A DNA stretch of 64,000 nucleotides from Flavobacterium piscisymbiosum. Lineage in GTDB: Bacteria > Bacteroidota > Bacteroidia > Flavobacteriales > Flavobacteriaceae. The stretch covers positions 5,146,001-5,210,000 of the forward strand of contig NZ_JAJJMM010000001.1 in NCBI RefSeq assembly GCF_020905295.1, read 5' to 3'. The first letter of the stretch is position 1. Every line of letters starts with the position of its first letter. This document shows, piece after piece, positions 32,645 to 52,690 of this stretch. Made by a program: the position numbers and the translations under genes. A model generated the notes under the pieces. It searched no databases, was not told the DNA's origin, and saw only the letters and a program-made list of their open reading frames with translations.

Positions 32645-33676
32645 TTGAAGATCAAATCGAAAATTTTAGCACACGAAAAGTCACTTATTCAAATTGAAAT
32701 TGGTGACACTTATTACCCAAAAAATTATTTAACAGAAGAGAATGTAAATATAAAAAATGGTGATTCAGAACAAATTAAGAGCCATCATTTAATCACCGAA
32801 GGAATGGTTTTGCTTGATACACAAATGCTCTTTTCAACGCCTCAAACTATCATTTTTGAAATTGATGAAGAATCTGTGGTGATGAATTTTATTTACTGCA
32901 ATAACGTCGAAACTCATATTGATGAATTAGAAACAGAAAAATATTCAAAAAAGAATACTCATAATATATTTTACGCTACAAAATATAAAGCAACTATAAA
33001 AATACCTGCCTTTGAAGAAATTAATTACTTTTCTATAATCTTGTCAAAAGACTTTTATTACAATATCATCAATGAAGATTGGGAACTTCATGAGAAATTT
33101 TCAAAAAATATCCTGCTTAAAAAATCGAGCTATCTTACTTCGAAATATATTCCCTTTACGCCGGCAATTCAATGGGTGATTCACGAAATAAAGAACTGTA
33201 ACCGTCAGGGTGCCCTAAAAAAAATGTATATCGAAACTAAGATCAGGGAACTGCTTATACATCAGCTTGAAACAATCATTACCATACCCATACAAAAAGA
33301 TTTAATTGATGAAGACGATTACAATAAATTATTAGAAGCCAAACAAATACTAGACAACGATTATGTTCACGCACCAACATTGGCAGAACTTTCAAGGTTG
33401 ATTTCGCTAAATGAATTTAAACTAAAAAAAGGGTTTAAAGCTTGTTTTGGAACTACCGTGAAAAGTTATATTATTAAACTCAGAATGGAGCATGCCAAAG
33501 AATTATTTCAGAATAAAGCTTCGACAGTTAGTGATGTAGCATACAAATGTGGCTATAAAGATGTGTCTCATTTTTCGGCAGCTTTTAAAAACTTCTATGG
33601 TTTTTCACCTCAAAAGTTCAAAATCAATTGGGACCATATTCATTTTTGGATTACGGGAATTTTACTGTTAAGCTAA
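32645..33676 (+). CDS. AraC family regulator, probably of the adjacent iron receptor operon
   Basis: This 343-residue regulator has an N-terminal sensing region of no recognisable motif (1-230) and a C-terminal AraC double helix-turn-helix (about 235-330: DNDYVHAPTLAELSRLISLNEFKLKKGFKACFGTTVKSYIIKLRMEHAKELF, then VSDVAYKCGYKDVSHFSAAFKNFYGFSPQKFK). It resembles the PchR type that controls siderophore receptors. The start is TTG (32645-32647): a TAG stop lies in frame at 32603 and there is no ATG between. The direct repeats end five bases before this start, so autoregulation is likely. Its C-terminus carries about ten extra hydrophobic residues after the DNA-binding domain. Confidence 0.88.
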   Translation: MKIKSKILAHEKSLIQIEIGDTYYPKNYLTEENVNIKNGDSEQIKSHHLITEGMVLLDTQMLFSTPQTIIFEIDEESVVMNFIYCNNVETHIDELETEKYSKKNTHNIFYATKYKATIKIPAFEEINYFSIILSKDFYYNIINEDWELHEKFSKNILLKKSSYLTSKYIPFTPAIQWVIHEIKNCNRQGALKKMYIETKIRELLIHQLETIITIPIQKDLIDEDDYNKLLEAKQILDNDYVHAPTLAELSRLISLNEFKLKKGFKACFGTTVKSYIIKLRMEHAKELFQNKASTVSDVAYKCGYKDVSHFSAAFKNFYGFSPQKFKINWDHIHFWITGILLLS

Positions 33677-33722: not shown

Positions 33723-34123
33723 ATAAAAATTAGACTTTCTTGTATGTCTTGCAAACTTATACAAAGATAACCACTATGAAATGGTGTCAAATTTTCATTC
33801 TAAAAAAAATGTTTCTCCAAAAACAGTAACATAGAAATTAAAAAATGCTGTTTAAAAAGGCAAAAACAACGTCAATATCAATTTCTATAACACAAATCTA
33901 CAAGCTCCTTTAGAGAAAACATTACGGGTTTCCACATTTGGTACTCTTTTTTTTCTCTTATTTATAATCATTCAATTTTAATTTATTGTTTTACTTGACA
34001 TTACGCCTCTTTTTCAAACAATTATAACTTATTTTTTTTTTATAAAAATTATTATTTCTAAAAAAAATGATATAGAAATCCTACAGCTGAATCTCCAAAT
34101 TAGCTTTCAAAAATTGAAACTTA

Positions 34124-34460
34124 ATTTCTTGTCCTAGATTAAGCGACTACTTTTTAGCTTAGTAATACATTTGTCAAATAAATGAATCGTTCTTTTTAAA
34201 ACTGAATCTAAAACCTGAAAAACATACTTCGACTAAAGATTAATTTCTTGTCCTGGATTAAGCCAAGCTTTTTGAGTTAACCAATACATTTGTCAAACAA
34301 ATTATTAGTTCTTAAAAAAAGCTGCCATCTTAAACCTGAAATCATCAAATTGTAGAAAATTACATTTCTTGTCCTAGATTAAGCGAACAAAATTGAATTA
34401 ACGAATACATTTGTAAAACAAATTACAAGTTCTATCCAACTGAAAAATTAAAGCCTAAAA
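34124..34460 (+). repeat. Three tandem ~120-bp promoter-like units
   Basis: Units begin at 34124, 34243 and 34364 (spacing 119 and 121 bp). Each has box A (ATTTCTTGTCC, A or G at the next position but one, then GATTAAGC; 21 bases), a spacer of exactly 19 bases with unconserved sequence, and box B AATACATTTGT followed by MAAAYAAAT. Box B contains TACATTTG, an exact TAnnTTTG -7 element (34166-34173, 34285-34292, 34406-34413). It also contains the inverted repeat ATTTGT-N3-ACAAAT (one mismatch in unit 1). Weaker shared blocks AGTTCT and TAAACCTGAAA follow. No ORF is present. This fills most of the 33677-34517 gap. Confidence 0.85.
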
Positions 34461-34517
34461 AAAACTTAGTAACTTAATAACTCAGCCTCTTAGAAACTTA
34501 AACAAAAAAAAACGATT

Positions 34518-34832
34518 ATGAAAACTCTTGAATTCTTATTACTCGGAAAAAACGAAGCGATCCTGGCCATTTTACTTCGACTTGTAAATGCAGATGAAAA
34601 CTGGAACGCAGTTGCTTTTCATCACGAGAATGAAGCTCAGGAATACTTTCAAAATCACAAAATCGACATTGTTCTTTTGAGTTCCGGAATCGAAGATCAT
34701 GTCGAAAAAAAGTTCACTTCTTTTTGTTTAGAACAACAACCCGAAGTCGAAGTAATTGAACATTTTGGAGGAGGAAGCGGTTTATTAAAATCAGAAATCC
34801 TTCACCGATTACATCTAAAAGGAAAAATTTAG
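34518..34832 (+). CDS. Small receiver-like protein of unknown function
   Basis: This 104-residue protein has no signal peptide. Its pattern resembles half to two thirds of a response-regulator receiver domain: a hydrophobic first strand (EFLLLGKN), a helix (AILAILLRLVNAD), NWNAVAFHHENEAQEYFQNHKIDIVLLSSGIEDH where IDIVLLSSG takes the place of the phospho-Asp strand, and a Gly-rich C-terminal part (EHFGGGSGLLKSEILHRLHLKG). The acceptor Asp position holds Ser, so phosphorylation seems unlikely. It stands alone between the triple promoter array and its own terminator, with an AT-rich leader of about 100 bases from the last promoter box. I do not recognise a named family. Confidence 0.65.
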   Translation: MKTLEFLLLGKNEAILAILLRLVNADENWNAVAFHHENEAQEYFQNHKIDIVLLSSGIEDHVEKKFTSFCLEQQPEVEVIEHFGGGSGLLKSEILHRLHLKGKI

Positions 34833-35061: not shown

Positions 35062-35751
35062 ATGAAAAAATTAATCCTTACCGCAGCATTATTATTTGTA
35101 ACTTTTATTGGATTCGCTCAAAAACCAAGTCCTGCACAATTAGATCCTTTCAACCACACATTAGTACTTATTGATTACGAAAGCCAAATGGCATTTGCAG
35201 TAAATAACATTCCAATCGATCAACTTCGTAACAACACCGCTTTAGTTGCCGGAGCTTCAAAAATATTCAAAGTTCCTACCATTGTAACAACCGTTGCAGA
35301 AAAGTCATTTAGCGGACCCGTTTTTCGTGAAATCGAAGAATTTTATCCAAAAGCTACTTCAAACTACATCGATCGTACTTCAATGAATACCTGGGAAGAT
35401 ATTCCTGCTCATAAAGCTATAGTTGCAAAAGGTAAAAAGAAACTGGTTTTTGCAGGTTTATGGACAAGCGTTTGTATCGTTGGGCCAGCATTATCAGCAA
35501 TCAACGAAGGTTATGATGTATATGTAATTACAGATGCAAGTGGCGATGTTTCTAAAGAAGCACACGAAATGGCCGTAACCCGTATGGTTCAGGCAGGTGC
35601 TCATCCGGTAACTTCATTACAGTATTTATTAGAATTACAACGCGACTGGGCTCGTCAGGAAACTTATGTACCTGTAACAGATTTAGTTAAAAAATACGGT
35701 GGTGCTTACGGTGTTGGTGTTCAATACGCTCACGAAATGTTGAAACACTAA
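35062..35751 (+). CDS. Secreted isochorismatase-fold cysteine hydrolase
   Basis: This is a 229-residue hydrolase of the isochorismatase/nicotinamidase superfamily (YcaC-like). Unusually for the family it has a clear signal peptide (MKKLILTAALLFVTFIGFAQ), so it should act in the periplasm. Visible motifs are the catalytic Asp region HTLVLIDYESQMAFAV near 33-48, RTSMNTWED near 113 and the nucleophile Cys in VFAGLWTSVCIVGPALSA near 148. The Lys of the usual Asp-Lys-Cys triad is not obvious at the normal position. It is followed by an amidohydrolase (47 bp) and a porin (3 bp later), suggesting breakdown of an amide- or ester-type compound outside the cytoplasm. The substrate is unknown. Confidence 0.82.
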   Translation: MKKLILTAALLFVTFIGFAQKPSPAQLDPFNHTLVLIDYESQMAFAVNNIPIDQLRNNTALVAGASKIFKVPTIVTTVAEKSFSGPVFREIEEFYPKATSNYIDRTSMNTWEDIPAHKAIVAKGKKKLVFAGLWTSVCIVGPALSAINEGYDVYVITDASGDVSKEAHEMAVTRMVQAGAHPVTSLQYLLELQRDWARQETYVPVTDLVKKYGGAYGVGVQYAHEMLKH

Positions 35752-35798
35752 TTAATTTTTAATTAAATCATTCAAAACCAACAAAAAATACCACAACC

Positions 35799-37586
35799 AT
35801 GAAACTCTCTTTCAAAATACTAGCTTTTCTTTTCATCATTTCCCTGCCTGTTTTCGCTCAAGGCAAAAGAGCCACACTTATCGTTCATCATGCTGTAATT
35901 CATACTTTAGACGATAAAAATACGATTGTAGAAGCAATGGCTGTTGCCGATGGAAAAATCCTTAAAACCGGAAAAAACAGCGACATTTTAAAACTAAAAA
36001 ACAAAAACACAACTGTAATAGATGCCAAAGGAAAAGTAATTATTCCCGGAATATTCGATTCACACATGCATATTATACGCGGTGGAAGATTCTTTAATAC
36101 CGAGTTGCGCTGGGATGGTGTTCGTACTCTAAAAAGAGCTTTGGCAATGCTAAAAGAACAAGCACAAAGAACGCCAAAAGGCCAATGGGTTCGCGTTGTT
36201 GGCGGATGGAATGCTTATCAGTTTGAAGAAAAAAGATTACCAACTTTAGCAGAAATTAATGAAGCTACAGGAGATGTTCCGGCATTTATTCTTCATTTAT
36301 ACGGTCACGCTTATCTAAACAAGGCCGGAATCGTAGCCTTAAAAATAGATGCCAATACACCAAACCCAAATGCGGGATTGATTGAAAAAGATGCCAACGG
36401 AAACCCAACCGGATTATTAGTGGCAGAACCAAACGCTTTTATTTTATACTCGACACTTGCTAAACTTCCGGAATTAACTGAAGATGAAAAATTCAATTCG
36501 ACTAAACAATTTATGACCGAAATGAACCGACTTGGCGTAACAGCAATTATGGATGCAGGAGGCGGATTTCAAAATTTCCCTGACGATTACGGCGTAACCA
36601 ACGGTTTATGCAAAGACAGCGATTTAACCATTAGAATGCCTTATTATTTGTTTGCACAAAAAGCAGGAACAGAACTAAACGATTATACCAAATGGATGCA
36701 GACTGTAGAAATTGGCGAAGGATGTGACGACGACGACCATTCTGATAAAGTAGAATACCATGTTCAGGGTGCAGGAGAAAATTTAGTAATGAGTGCCGGA
36801 GATTTTGAAAACTTCGACAAACCAAGACCTGAATTAAGCCCGGCGATGGAAGGACAATTAAAAGAAGTGTTGTCTTTATTGGTAAAAAACAGATGGCCGT
36901 TTAGAATTCACGCCACATATAACGAAAGCATCACCCGATTTTTAAATGTTATTGAAGACATCAACAAAGAAAATCCCCTAAACGGACTTTTATGGTTCTT
37001 TGATCACGGAGAAACGGTTTCTGTAGAAAACTTAAAACGCATAAAAGCGCTGAACGGCGGATTGGCAATTCAGCATAGAATGGCATATCAGGGAGAAAGT
37101 TTCATAAAAAGATATGGCAAAGCAGCAGCTGCAAACACAGTTCCGCTAAAGAAAATATTAGAATTAGGAATTAAAGTAGGAATGGGAACTGACGGAACTC
37201 GTGTAGCAAGTTACAATCCGTGGGTTGGTTTATATTGGTTAACTACAGGAAAAACACTGGGCGGTTTAAAATATATGAATGACGAAAATATAGTAGACAG
37301 AACAACGGCACTAAAATTATTTACCTACGGAAGCGCACAGTTAATCAATATCGAAAAAGACAGAGGAATGCTCACAGCAGATAAATTAGCCGATTTTGCC
37401 ATTCTTTCTGATGATTATTTTAACACGCCTGAAGAGCAAATTTTAAACATCGAATCGAAACTTACAGTTGTAAACGGTAAAGTAGTTTATGCTGATGATG
37501 ATTTTAGAAACTTTGCTCAACCTACTCCAAAAGCAATTCCGGATTGGAGTCCTGTAAACTATTTTGGCGGATATCAAAAAAACTAA
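35799..37586 (+). CDS. Secreted YtcJ-type metal-dependent amidohydrolase
   Basis: This 595-residue member of the amidohydrolase superfamily resembles YtcJ/AepA. It carries a signal peptide ending LPVFAQ. Metal-site and fold motifs: GIFDSHMHIIRGG near 85-97 (H-x-H), then QWVRVVGGWNAYQFEEKRLP typical of YtcJ, NRLGVTAIMDAGGGF near 240, the His-containing FRIHATYNES near 366, FDHGETVS near 405, and VGMGTDGTRVASYNPW near 465 with the metal-binding Asp. The C-terminal composite beta part reads KLADFAILSDDYFNTPEEQI. It lies between the hydrolase and porin genes and is only 3 bp from the latter, so it belongs to one operon. Specific substrate not inferable. Confidence 0.85.
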   Translation: MKLSFKILAFLFIISLPVFAQGKRATLIVHHAVIHTLDDKNTIVEAMAVADGKILKTGKNSDILKLKNKNTTVIDAKGKVIIPGIFDSHMHIIRGGRFFNTELRWDGVRTLKRALAMLKEQAQRTPKGQWVRVVGGWNAYQFEEKRLPTLAEINEATGDVPAFILHLYGHAYLNKAGIVALKIDANTPNPNAGLIEKDANGNPTGLLVAEPNAFILYSTLAKLPELTEDEKFNSTKQFMTEMNRLGVTAIMDAGGGFQNFPDDYGVTNGLCKDSDLTIRMPYYLFAQKAGTELNDYTKWMQTVEIGEGCDDDDHSDKVEYHVQGAGENLVMSAGDFENFDKPRPELSPAMEGQLKEVLSLLVKNRWPFRIHATYNESITRFLNVIEDINKENPLNGLLWFFDHGETVSVENLKRIKALNGGLAIQHRMAYQGESFIKRYGKAAAANTVPLKKILELGIKVGMGTDGTRVASYNPWVGLYWLTTGKTLGGLKYMNDENIVDRTTALKLFTYGSAQLINIEKDRGMLTADKLADFAILSDDYFNTPEEQILNIESKLTVVNGKVVYADDDFRNFAQPTPKAIPDWSPVNYFGGYQKN

Positions 37587-37589
37587 ATT

Positions 37590-38960
37590 ATGAACACACT
37601 ATTCCGATTATTGCTGTTTTTGGGATTCATTTCAGCCACAAATGCACAACAAAACCCCGTATTTCAAAAGTTGCGGTATGACGATGATGCTACTTATTTA
37701 CAAACAGATTCGGCCAAAAACGCATACGAGAAAATCAAATATATTCCGCTGAGCAAAAATAGCAATTACTTCGCCTCTATTGGCGGGGAAGCCAGATGGC
37801 AATATACTTATACTGTAAATGATAAATGGGGCGATGAATCTGACGAAGGCGACGGCTATTTACTTTCCCGTTATCTGCTTCATGCTGATGTTCATTTGGG
37901 AATTTTCAGAACTTTTGTAGAATTTCAAAGCAGTCTGGCAAACAGCAAAATAGATCCGAGTCCGGTAGATGAAAATCAGCTCGATATTCATCAGGCTTTT
38001 TTAGATATCGATTTTATTCATAATAAAAGCGAACAATTTACATTACGTTCCGGAAGACAGGAAATGATGTACGGTTCGCAGCGTTTGGTAGCAGTTCGAG
38101 AAGGCCCAAACAGCCGACTTGCTTTTGACGGAATCAAATTGTTTTATAAAAATAGAAATTGGCAGACCGATGCCTTTTTCACTCATCCGATCGCGAATAA
38201 AACCGGAACCTTTAATGATGAATTCAATGAAAATGCCAAATTCTGGGGAAGTTATACTGTGATTCATAAAGTACCATTTGTAGAAAATATCGATTTATAT
38301 TATTTAGGATTATGGAAGAGCCGTTCCGTTTTTGATGATGCTATTGGAGAAGAAACCAGACACTCTTTAGGAACCAGAATCTGGAAAAACAAAGGAAACT
38401 GGAAATACGATTTTGAAGCACTTTACCAATTCGGAAAAATAAGTGAGAAAACAATTTCCGCCTGGACACTTTCTTCTTTTGCCTGTTATACTTTTGAAAA
38501 TGTGAAATTCAGTCCCGAAATCGGATTGAAAACAGAAATTATTTCAGGAGATAAACATTCAGATGATAATCATTTACAAACCTTTAATCCCTTATATCCA
38601 AGAGGCGCTTATTTCGGATTAGTAGCTTTAATTGGCCCGTCTAATTTAATTGATATTCATCCGTCGATTAATTTAGAATTAACTAAAAAATTGGGTTTGG
38701 GATTTGATTATGATATTTTTTGGAGACAAACAATAAGCGATGGTTTATACGCGCCCAATATGCAATTATTGTATTCCGGAAAAGACACTACAGAACGTTT
38801 TATAGGTTCTCAATTGATTACAAATCTAGATTATGCTATGAATGACTTTCTTTCTTTTACACTTGAAACCGGTTGGTTTAATGCAGGTTCATTCTTAAAA
38901 GAGGTTGGTACAGGAAAAGATTATTTTTATGGGGCTTTGACTGCTCAATTTAAATTCTGA
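37590..38960 (+). CDS. Alginate-export-family outer-membrane porin
   Basis: This 456-residue beta-barrel protein has a signal peptide (MNTLFRLLLFLGFISATNAQ). The body matches the AlgE/alginate_exp type: FASIGGEARWQYTYTVNDKWGDESDEGDGYLLSRYLLHADVHLG near 60-105, LDIHQAFLDIDF, FTLRSGRQEMMYGSQRLVAVREGPNSRLAFDGIKLFY near 150-187, and alternating barrel strands ending GALTAQFKF with a terminal Phe. Despite the family name, many such proteins are general substrate channels, and there are no alginate biosynthesis genes here. As the third gene after two periplasmic hydrolases it probably admits their substrate. Confidence 0.85.
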   Translation: MNTLFRLLLFLGFISATNAQQNPVFQKLRYDDDATYLQTDSAKNAYEKIKYIPLSKNSNYFASIGGEARWQYTYTVNDKWGDESDEGDGYLLSRYLLHADVHLGIFRTFVEFQSSLANSKIDPSPVDENQLDIHQAFLDIDFIHNKSEQFTLRSGRQEMMYGSQRLVAVREGPNSRLAFDGIKLFYKNRNWQTDAFFTHPIANKTGTFNDEFNENAKFWGSYTVIHKVPFVENIDLYYLGLWKSRSVFDDAIGEETRHSLGTRIWKNKGNWKYDFEALYQFGKISEKTISAWTLSSFACYTFENVKFSPEIGLKTEIISGDKHSDDNHLQTFNPLYPRGAYFGLVALIGPSNLIDIHPSINLELTKKLGLGFDYDIFWRQTISDGLYAPNMQLLYSGKDTTERFIGSQLITNLDYAMNDFLSFTLETGWFNAGSFLKEVGTGKDYFYGALTAQFKF

Positions 38961-39768: not shown

Positions 39769-39776
39769 TATATTTG
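39769..39776 (+). promoter_or_regulatory. -7 promoter box that decides the start of the AraC gene
   Basis: TATATTTG matches TAnnTTTG. It overlaps the alternative TTG start at 39774, which would therefore not be transcribed; the ATG at 39795 lies about 12 bases after the predicted transcription start. Confidence 0.55.
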
Positions 39777-39794
39777 AATTTTACAATTCATCTT

Positions 39795-40718
39795 ATGAAA
39801 TCACTCGATTCATTTTATCAGGACATCACCGAAGGTTCTTCCATAGAACCAAGTTCATTATTACCCAACGACATCAAAAAAGAAATTGGGCATTTTAATG
39901 TATTTGACATTAAAGAACTTTTAGAACGTATGCAGGGAAAACCGGGAATGCCTTACGACAGAAGAGCTTATTACAAGATAAGTTTAATTCGTGGTAAGAA
40001 TAAAGCCGAGTATGCCGATAAAATAATCGAAATCGAAAAGCAAGGACTTTTGTTTGCTACGCCAAAAATCCCGTACAATTATGTGCCGCAAGACACCAAC
40101 CAGTCCGGGCAATTTTGTGTTTTTACGAGTGAGTTTTTATCCAAAAATAAAAGCGGAATTGACTTAGATGAATTGCCTATTTTTTCTTCAGACGGATATC
40201 CTATTTTTCAGCTTACAGATGAAGAAGTTGCAGAAGTTGAATTGATTTTCAATAAAATACAAAAAGAAATCAATTCAGATTATATTTACAAATACGATCT
40301 GATTCGTAATTATGTTGCTGAGTTAATTCACTTTGGTCAAAAATTACAGCCTATAACTGCTTTATATTCTAAGCATAATTCGGCGGCAAGAGTTTCTTCT
40401 TTATTTGCAGAATTACTGGAAAGACAATTCCCTATTGAATCACCAAACCAAAGATTAGAACTAAGAACAGCCAAAGATTTTGCAGAACGATTATCTGTTC
40501 ACGTCAATCATTTGAATAAGGTTTTAAAAGAAAACACCGGAAAAACCACCACTGAATTAATCACTACAAGATTAACGAATGAAGCCAAAATCCTTTTAAA
40601 ACAAACGGATTGGAACATCTCTGAAATCGCATTTTCATTGGGCTTCGAAGAGTTGGCGCATTTTTCTAATTTCTTTAAAAAACAAACGACATTTACGCCT
40701 CTTGCTTTTAGGAGTTAG
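39795..40718 (+). CDS. AraC family transcriptional regulator
   Basis: This 307-residue regulator has an N-terminal cupin-like sensing half (YYKISLIRGKNKAEYADKIIEIEKQGLLFATPKIPYNYVPQD, about 60-105) and a C-terminal AraC DNA-binding domain (about 215-307: LRTAKDFAERLSVHVNHLNKVLKENTGKTTTELITTRLTNEAKILLKQTDWNISEIAFSLGFEELAHFSNFFKKQTTFTPLAFR). This type is common in flavobacteria beside short-chain dehydrogenases and oxidoreductases. Two SDR genes follow on the same strand (41054 and 41919), which are plausible targets. The upstream TTG at 39774 is rejected because a -7 box covers it. Confidence 0.88.
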   Translation: MKSLDSFYQDITEGSSIEPSSLLPNDIKKEIGHFNVFDIKELLERMQGKPGMPYDRRAYYKISLIRGKNKAEYADKIIEIEKQGLLFATPKIPYNYVPQDTNQSGQFCVFTSEFLSKNKSGIDLDELPIFSSDGYPIFQLTDEEVAEVELIFNKIQKEINSDYIYKYDLIRNYVAELIHFGQKLQPITALYSKHNSAARVSSLFAELLERQFPIESPNQRLELRTAKDFAERLSVHVNHLNKVLKENTGKTTTELITTRLTNEAKILLKQTDWNISEIAFSLGFEELAHFSNFFKKQTTFTPLAFRS

Positions 40719-40787
40719 ATTTTAGATTTTAGATTTTAGATTTTAGATTTTAGATTTTAGATTTTAGATTTTAGATTTTAGATTTTT
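40713..40787 (+). repeat. 8-bp minisatellite, about nine copies of TTTTAGAT
   Basis: From the stop codon of the AraC gene onward the unit TTTTAGAT repeats about nine times without interruption. It lies outside coding sequence except for the last bases of the gene. Similar single copies (AAAATCTAAAATC) occur near 41883-41910. Slippage could change the distance to downstream elements. Confidence 0.85.
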
Positions 40788-52079: not shown

Positions 52080-52209
52080 ATGTTTAATTGTTTCGCAGAG
52101 ATTCGCAAAGATGGCGCAGAAATTCGCTGAGTTTTTTTAATCTCGCAATCCCGATAGCTATCGGGAGCTAAGGCGCAAAGTTTTGTAATTAACTATTACG
52201 CGTATTGTT

Positions 52210-52690
52210 GTCATTTCGACGCAGGAGAAATCCTCGCGAGAAACTCGACAAAGATTGACGATTTTGCATGCGTATGATGGATTAAAATCCATCCCTACAA
52301 TATAATCCGTTCCTCTGAAACTCTTTATAAAATTACGTAGGAATGATTTATTTTGTAGCAAAGTACCGAGACTTCGGAATTAATACCTTGAAACGCAAGG
52401 TAACCCCAATATTGTCATTTCGACGCAGGAGAAATCCTTGCAAGAAACTCGACAAAGATTGACGATTTTGTATGCGTTGAATGGATTGAAATCCATCCCT
52501 ACAATATGATCCGTTCCTCCGGAACTCTTTATAAAATTGCGTAGGAATAATTTATTTTGTAGCAAGGTCCCGAGGCTTCGGGATTAATCCCTTTAATCGC
52601 AAAGTAACCCCAATTTTGTCATTTCGACGCAGGAGAAATCTTCGCAAGTAGCTCGACAAAGATTGACGATTTTGCATGCGGAGTTATTTG
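52210..52690. repeat. 204-bp tandem repeat, about 2.4 copies, in a gene-free stretch
   Basis: Units begin at 52210, 52414 and 52618 with GTCATTTCGACGCAGGAG. They share downstream blocks AGATTGACGATTTTG, GAAATCCATCCCTACAATAT, CCGTTCCTC and TTTATTTTGTAGCAA. The third unit is truncated soon after 52680. Open frames inside (52158-52361 and 52380-52565, minus) are near-identical to each other because of the repeat, not because they are genes. The gap 51949-52892 contains, besides this, CGCAAAG-type debris (52087-52180) and the palindrome CCCGATAGCTATCGGG (52150-52165). Confidence 0.85.

Follow-up and report, generated by a model that had tools for sequence, protein, structure and literature searches.

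A putative Crp/Fnr-type promoter repeated in tandem upstream of a gene for a pseudo-receiver-like protein in Flavobacterium

What is the output of three promoter-like units that stand head to tail in front of a small gene of Flavobacterium piscisymbiosum? In the window, by which we mean the whole stretch of 64,000 nucleotides that was analysed, the units start at 34125, 34244 and 34365. Each consists of the 19-mer TTTCTTGTCCTRGATTAAG (box A), a spacer of fixed length and the element TACATTTG. A first-pass annotation had described three tandem promoter-like units with constant spacing here; they are found where it placed them, and the distance from TTAAG to TACATTTG is 22 nt in all three. The features are as follows.

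34125 to 34143, + strand: box A of unit 1, TTTCTTGTCCTAGATTAAG, a putative Crp/Fnr-type operator with its palindrome core at 34128-34143 (from sequence)
34166 to 34173, + strand: -7 element of unit 1, TACATTTG (from sequence), with the predicted transcription start near 34180
34180 to 34207, + strand: presumed transcribed leader block of unit 1, a diverged form of AAATTAcaaGTTCTgtcAAAAactgAaa (from sequence comparison)
34244 to 34262, + strand: box A of unit 2, TTTCTTGTCCTGGATTAAG (from sequence)
34285 to 34292, + strand: -7 element of unit 2, TACATTTG (from sequence), with the predicted start near 34299
34299 to 34326, + strand: presumed transcribed leader block of unit 2 (from sequence comparison)
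34365 to 34383, + strand: box A of unit 3, TTTCTTGTCCTAGATTAAG (from sequence)
34406 to 34413, + strand: -7 element of unit 3, TACATTTG (from sequence), with the predicted start near 34420
34420 to 34447, + strand: presumed transcribed leader block of unit 3 (from sequence comparison)
34464 to 34499, + strand: octamer repeat of the CTTAG type within the gene's long leader, belonging to a dispersed genome family (from sequence and genome search)
34518 to 34832, + strand: gene of a 104-aa pseudo-receiver-like protein, probably served by the array (from the open reading frame, homologue loci and a structure model)

Tandem Repeats Finder delimits the array at 34116-34433 of the window (period 121, 2.7 copies, score 323). 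With up to three mismatches, the box A 19-mer is found at exactly three places in the window, against a mean of 0.08 and a maximum of 1 in 100 shuffles. The whole genome (6.49 Mb) holds six such places, namely the three units with 0 mismatches and three others with 3; the reversed 19-mer, used as a control, gives 13. Within two mismatches the 19-mer occurs nowhere else in the genome. A DNA search of the genome returned 23 places, one being the locus itself, one a match to the leader of unit 1 and 21 matches to the CTTAG filler downstream of unit 3, and since none of them matches box A, we rejected the idea that box A is part of a genome-wide repeat. The filler consists of degenerate octamer repeats, (ACTTAGNA)n, at 34464-34499 in the long leader of the last unit; the pattern ACTTAGNAACTTAGNAACT, with up to two mismatches, has 216 matches dispersed over the chromosome (reversed pattern, 7). 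Two other tandem repeats are seen in the window, one at 52208-52680 (period 204, 2.3 copies, 90% matches) and a perfect heptamer repeat, TTAGATT, at 40715-40786 (10.3 copies).

The same promoter is found in front of homologues of the 104-aa gene in related species. A scan of genome contigs for box and -7 element gave 46 stretches, 38 of them titled Flavobacterium. A homologue follows directly downstream of the unit or units in 38 of these stretches. Set aside were one stretch that ends before the gene (L068), two in which the promoter precedes an FMN-reductase-like gene (L049, L077), one in which it precedes an rpsO-like gene (L053) and four with no credible unit or gene (L051, L055, L056, L075). 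A search with the 104-aa protein in 397 genomes of the genus, partly the same genomes as in the scan, found a match in 145. Ninety-three hits had at least 60% identity, and 92 upstream regions were fetched, one hit at a contig edge being left out. Box A and the -7 element are present in all 92. The number of units is one in 55 loci, two in 9, three in 12, four in 8, five in 5, six in 2 and eight in 1; multi-unit loci (two to eight) make up 37 of the 92. The upstream region is truncated in three of the single-unit loci, among them G672, which has two further boxes at the end of another contig.

The distance from box to -7 element, for which 20-23 nt was allowed, is 21 nt in 128 of the 186 units and 22 nt in the other 58. 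The -7 element is exact in the three window units, and no called unit departs from it by more than one mismatch, although unit calling demanded a match to both box and -7 element and so inflates the conservation of both. Of the 55 single-unit loci, 30 have a box that begins 61-64 nt ahead of the ATG, with about 18 nt from the end of the -7 element to the ATG; three boxes with 3-4 mismatches (L238, L250, L251) were accepted solely for standing at 61-64 nt. The remaining 25 have the box 90-163 nt before the ATG. At least two CTTAG or CTCAG words occur between the last box and the ATG in 44 of 59 long-leader loci.

Homologues below 60% identity gave 56 hits in the genus search, of which 18 upstream regions were read; 14 of the 56 hits were among the 20 loci of 5 kb treated below. 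Two of the 18 (L257, L271) have a unit within 1300 nt upstream of the gene, and in the other 16 no unit was found within this range. In twelve of the 16 (L259-L270) a related box, TTGTCCTAGTTCAAT or a form that differs by one base, lies some 1460-1500 nt upstream of the gene, and CAAYTTTG follows it at 21 nt. In three such loci read at length (L275, L276, L277) this promoter lies between the Crp and pirin genes of a Crp-pirin-YceI-104aa cluster.

A search of Flavobacterium for box A, spacer and box B was the check that the first-pass annotation had proposed: copy number varies from 1 to 8, with the same gene downstream. Random drift of the boxes and of the spacer length, looked for as the contrary outcome, is not what the relatives show. 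Position, near-fixed spacing and the 92 homologous loci strongly support its two suggestions of a promoter with a regulator site and of promoters stacked in front of the protein gene at 34518. The best reading of the array is such a stacked promoter for the 104-aa gene, rather than a set of free-standing RNA genes, and the simplest reading of its history is one ancestral promoter, multiplied later.

We consider it likely, on sequence comparison, that the array is a stacked, activator-dependent promoter of Crp/Fnr type and of variable copy number which serves the 104-aa gene. The promoter region of this gene would have been multiplied in tandem, each unit being a complete activator-dependent promoter with a palindrome, a spacer of 21 or 22 nt of free sequence, a -7 element (TAnnTTTG) and a short conserved leader. 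A dimer of the Crp/Fnr family would bind the palindrome at about -42 and activate transcription. Transcripts started at each unit would read through into the gene (no terminator-like site is found between 34100 and 34520), and more units would give more or steeper induction. Unequal recombination among the units would create and remove copies.

The repeats could instead be a neutral by-product of slippage or recombination, with the unit nearest the gene alone at work. The middle units of an array are almost identical, as a recent expansion predicts (0.95 identical in the spacer). In addition, single units are the commonest state among the 92 loci, and a group of 27 sampled loci on the gene tree has single units only. 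Against this, upstream units keep their box and -7 element while their spacers drift: first and middle units of the same array are identical to a fraction of 0.90 in the box, 0.94 in the -7 element, 0.81-0.84 in the leader and 0.64 in the spacer, the last from pairs of equal length with 18 of 57 pairs left out for unequal spacers. Homogenisation can also make copies look constrained. Decayed copies are rare. A nhmmer profile of upstream units, built from the units themselves, gave 194 hits, 187 of them on called units, and the other seven are two units without box A (L198, L200), one cut by a contig end (L188) and four weak hits. Furthermore, arrays are found in loci from 76 to 98% identity, and the gene tree (200 nt, with 44 of 89 inner branches open) needs at least eight changes between single and multiple units. 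From segment divergence, rare decayed copies and these tree changes, the arrays look long-lived, gained or lost several times, with their upstream units kept intact. A neutral origin, with one working unit, is unlikely in our judgement.

Box A has the form CTTRTYCT-AGATTAAG, an imperfect 16-bp palindrome. Self-complementary positions number 12 or 14 of 16 in 120 of the 186 units and 8-10 in the other 66, and 1.2% of control windows, some of which overlap boxes, reach at least 12. Box A is a putative Crp/Fnr-type palindrome with its centre near -42, reckoned from the -7 element. An earlier placement at -33 holds for the proximal arm, which overlaps the -33 region, but not for the centre of the palindrome. 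In class II activated promoters of the Crp/Fnr family the dimer is centred near -41.5; the FNR box is TTGAT-N4-ATCAA and the 'dehalobox' of CprK is TTAAT-N4-ATTAA. The array palindrome is similar in length and half-site spacing, its centre lies about 30 nt before the -7 element at near-fixed spacing, and related operators are linked to Crp/Fnr genes. It differs from these promoters in its half sites (TTRTYC/ATTAAG), in a Bacteroidota -7 element in place of the -10, in the repetition of the whole promoter up to 8 times, and in that binding is predicted. The housekeeping promoter of Bacteroidota consists of -33 TTTG and -7 TAnnTTTG. Array units carry its -7 element, whereas their -33 region is taken by the proximal arm of box A, with no separate conserved TTTG.

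An inverted repeat, ATTTGT-N3-ACAAAT, had also been reported over the -7 element. Units 2 and 3 carry it without a mismatch and unit 1 with a single one, but in relatives it is weakly conserved. The arms match at a mean of 3.5 of 6 positions in the last units of the 92 loci (at least 5 in 13%) and at a mean of 3.9 in all 186 units (at least 5 in 27%); the true offset was the best of seven tried, the others giving 1.7-2.9. With so weak a signal in relatives, we rejected it as a conserved repeat.

Similar operators are found elsewhere in the genome. The pattern CTTRNNCTNNNTTAAN + spacing + TANNTTTG occurs at 8 places, namely the three array units and five others, and the reversed pattern at 0. 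The five non-array sites read CTTAATCTA(G/A)(G/A)TTAA(G/C) and all lie 22 nt from TAnnTTTG. They precede a dioxygenase-like/GNAT gene pair, a YceI gene, a pirin gene, a pirin-OsmC-GNAT operon and an alpha/beta hydrolase gene. The names pirin, GNAT, DoxX, DJ-1, LigT, ring-cleaving dioxygenase and rpsO are our own assignments, presumed from the sequences; family matches were obtained for YceI, OsmC, isochorismatase, amidohydrolase and AraC (32645), and weak ones for FMN reductase and glyoxalase/dioxygenase. Among 23 non-array operator sites the spacing is 22 nt in 19 and 21 nt in 4. The left arm differs between the array boxes (TTRTYC) and the regulon palindrome (TTAATC). Seven of the eight loci L247-L254 (63-67% identity) have a TTAA left arm, for example TTAATCTGGATTAAG, and these putative boxes bridge the array form and the regulon form. 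With pirin, YceI, OsmC, dioxygenase-like, FMN reductase and GNAT genes as its members, the regulon may respond to stress of an electrophile or redox type. Related operator-promoter units also stand in pairs, 81-100 nt apart, before a YceI gene (L284), before a pirin-like gene (L294) and downstream of a Crp/Fnr gene (L283, L289), so that doubling recurs in this promoter family.

Which regulator would bind these sites? We propose a Crp/Fnr activator, most likely the protein predicted at genome position 2158772-2159344, which is the best candidate because of the operator linkage of its orthologues. This subfamily has a match at E 1e-70 in 264 of the 397 genus genomes. In 26 of the 27 genomes listed with both coordinates, the orthologue is followed on its own strand, no more than 8 kb downstream, by an operator of the form CTTAATCTAGRTTAAG, and in 7 of the 27 the distance is within 200 bp; in the 27th genome, orthologue and operator are on different contigs. 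All seven adjacent loci have the order Crp, operator, pirin, mostly followed by GNAT, OsmC, small protein MDPK..., FMN-reductase-like or YceI genes. Operator places are listed for at least 48 genomes, 25 with the place of the orthologue also listed, 16 with an orthologue but no listed place, and 7 (G022, G172, G020, G587, G593, G576, G629) in which no candidate orthologue was found at E 1e-70. In the present genome no operator of this form was found within 1.5 kb of the candidate gene, the nearest being 5.8 kb away.

Linkage is also seen with other Crp/Fnr genes. A Crp/Fnr-like gene lies beside or in the 104-aa gene cluster in 13 of 20 homologue loci of 5 kb (homologues with 33-67% identity in the alignment, or below the cut), 10 of the 13 having been checked by BLASTP, and boxes such as TTGAACTAGTTCAA or TTGTCCTAGTTCAA occur in these Crp-linked loci. 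The linkage argument draws mainly on these 20 loci and the 27 genomes above. Where a Crp gene adjoins the 104-aa gene in diverged species, it is accompanied by a palindrome of its own, TTGAACTAGTTCAA, and 8 of 10 such genes are most like another paralogue of the present genome (L162, 42-47%). Outside the genus, four genomes have an operator match. In L128 and L130 it immediately follows a Crp/Fnr gene; in L126 it is one gene farther on, after both Crp and DoxX-like genes. The match in the fourth genome (L129), with no gene of at least 60 aa starting within 260 nt, was taken as chance. In the clade of the window itself, the Crp/Fnr gene is not beside the array. Given the differing left arm and the 31 cNMP_binding matches in this genome, another Crp/Fnr paralogue may be the regulator. 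L160 and L162 were rejected for this role, each having a different perfect palindrome right downstream. Perfect but different palindromes, TTAAACTAGTTTAA and TTGAAGTACTTCAA, are seen beside or near other Crp/Fnr paralogues (C1:4173312, 4182259, 4187128, 33107; L162, L125, L160). This suggests putative Crp/Fnr subregulons with distinct operators within one genome, in which each subfamily seems to have its own site.

Box A might otherwise be the operator of a repressor or of another regulator class, such as the AraC protein next door or a MarR/HxlR-like protein, in place of a Crp/Fnr activator. Upstream there is an AraC gene (32645-33676) and downstream an AraC-like open reading frame, recognized by eye (39774-40718), and a similar AraC-like frame is near the gene in L047, L072 and L076. 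However, an activator on the face of RNA polymerase would agree with the form of the palindrome and with the 21 or 22 nt that separate it from the -7 element, the operator is linked to Crp/Fnr genes inside and outside the genus, and the different palindromes downstream of L160 and L162 speak in the same direction. We set box A aside as an AraC site on palindrome and linkage, and we hold a regulator of another class to be quite unlikely.

The -7 element is followed by a leader block, AAATTAcaaGTTCTgtcAAAAactgAaa (GTTCT...AACTGAA), of about 28 nt at the presumed transcript start, and the block AAACCTGAAA is common to two of the three window units. Short conserved blocks downstream of the start had been noted before, and the related arrays bear this out. 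GTTCT is kept in 28 of 37 picked upstream units across species and in 20 of 37 last units of arrays, but in 2 of 25 single units with a long leader and 0 of 30 with a short one. Conservation is higher in this block than in the spacer and exceeds what a promoter alone would require. Possible explanations are a role at the mRNA 5' end, a second site, and shared ancestry.

It is quite improbable, in our estimate, that two functions are combined here, with promoter copy number acting as an evolvable rheostat and each upstream unit releasing a trans-acting short 5' RNA with the conserved segment AAAUUACAAGUUCUGUCAAAAACUGAAA, so that the array would serve as a multicopy locus of regulatory RNA as well as a promoter stack. 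Very unlikely is the reading that each unit is a gene of a small regulatory RNA, the array a set of paralogous genes of this kind and the protein gene merely downstream. The transcribed block conserved in upstream units, and its lower divergence than that of the spacer within arrays, agree with this part of the first-pass annotation; the array lacks a terminator-like site, an Rfam match and a convincing structure. At gathering score, no Rfam match was found in five array loci, and the window has sub-threshold matches only, which led us to reject a riboswitch or known RNA. Nine leaders of 40 nt were folded and showed no common structure, with energies from 0 to -4.8 kcal/mol. Of 37 upstream units, 26 have a 4-bp stem from GTT, and shuffled tails gave a mean of 10.8 and a maximum of 17; the count in the units is inflated by relatedness, which the shuffle test ignores, and we rejected this hairpin as too weak. 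Furthermore, in the 30 single-unit loci with a short leader, the same box belongs to an ordinary mRNA promoter that ends about 18 nt short of the ATG.

The component parts of the stacked promoter are already known. What appears to be new is the reiteration of a whole promoter to as many as eight complete, well-kept copies. Several promoters in series also feed one gene in the tandem promoters of rRNA operons and in animal rDNA, where the repeated spacer promoters are copies of the gene promoter. Unlike these cases, the array copies look activator-dependent and belong to the gene of a 104-aa protein, and related species have between 1 and 8 of them. If our reading is true, dozens of related species differ naturally in how many copies (1 to 8) of one activator-dependent promoter precede the same gene, and they offer a ready test of how whole-promoter repetition affects expression level, noise and induction. 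It would also provide an operator and a likely Crp/Fnr regulator for a pirin/YceI/OsmC/FMN-reductase regulon in Flavobacterium, which a conserved pseudo-receiver protein would join.

The AlphaFold2 model of the 104-aa protein has a receiver-like fold (pLDDT 87.9). The best Foldseek hits are PorX and then other receivers, and Spo0F (3q15_D) has a TM-score of 0.78 on the query. Sequence matches to receivers are weak (best E 0.18), and the window protein has no Pfam or NCBIfam family above the cut-off. The phospho-acceptor aspartate is absent in all 33 aligned members, LLSS, LLGS, LLSC and the like replacing the LLD of Spo0F, and H82 and GGGSGLL are invariant. As modelled, the protein is a conserved pseudo-receiver. 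Isochorismatase, amidohydrolase and porin-like genes follow its gene at 35062-38960 of the window, and in L280 the 104-aa gene and a Crp/Fnr gene have similar isochorismatase and amidohydrolase frames next to them. In L047, L072 and L076, LigT-like and AraC-like frames directly follow the 104-aa gene.
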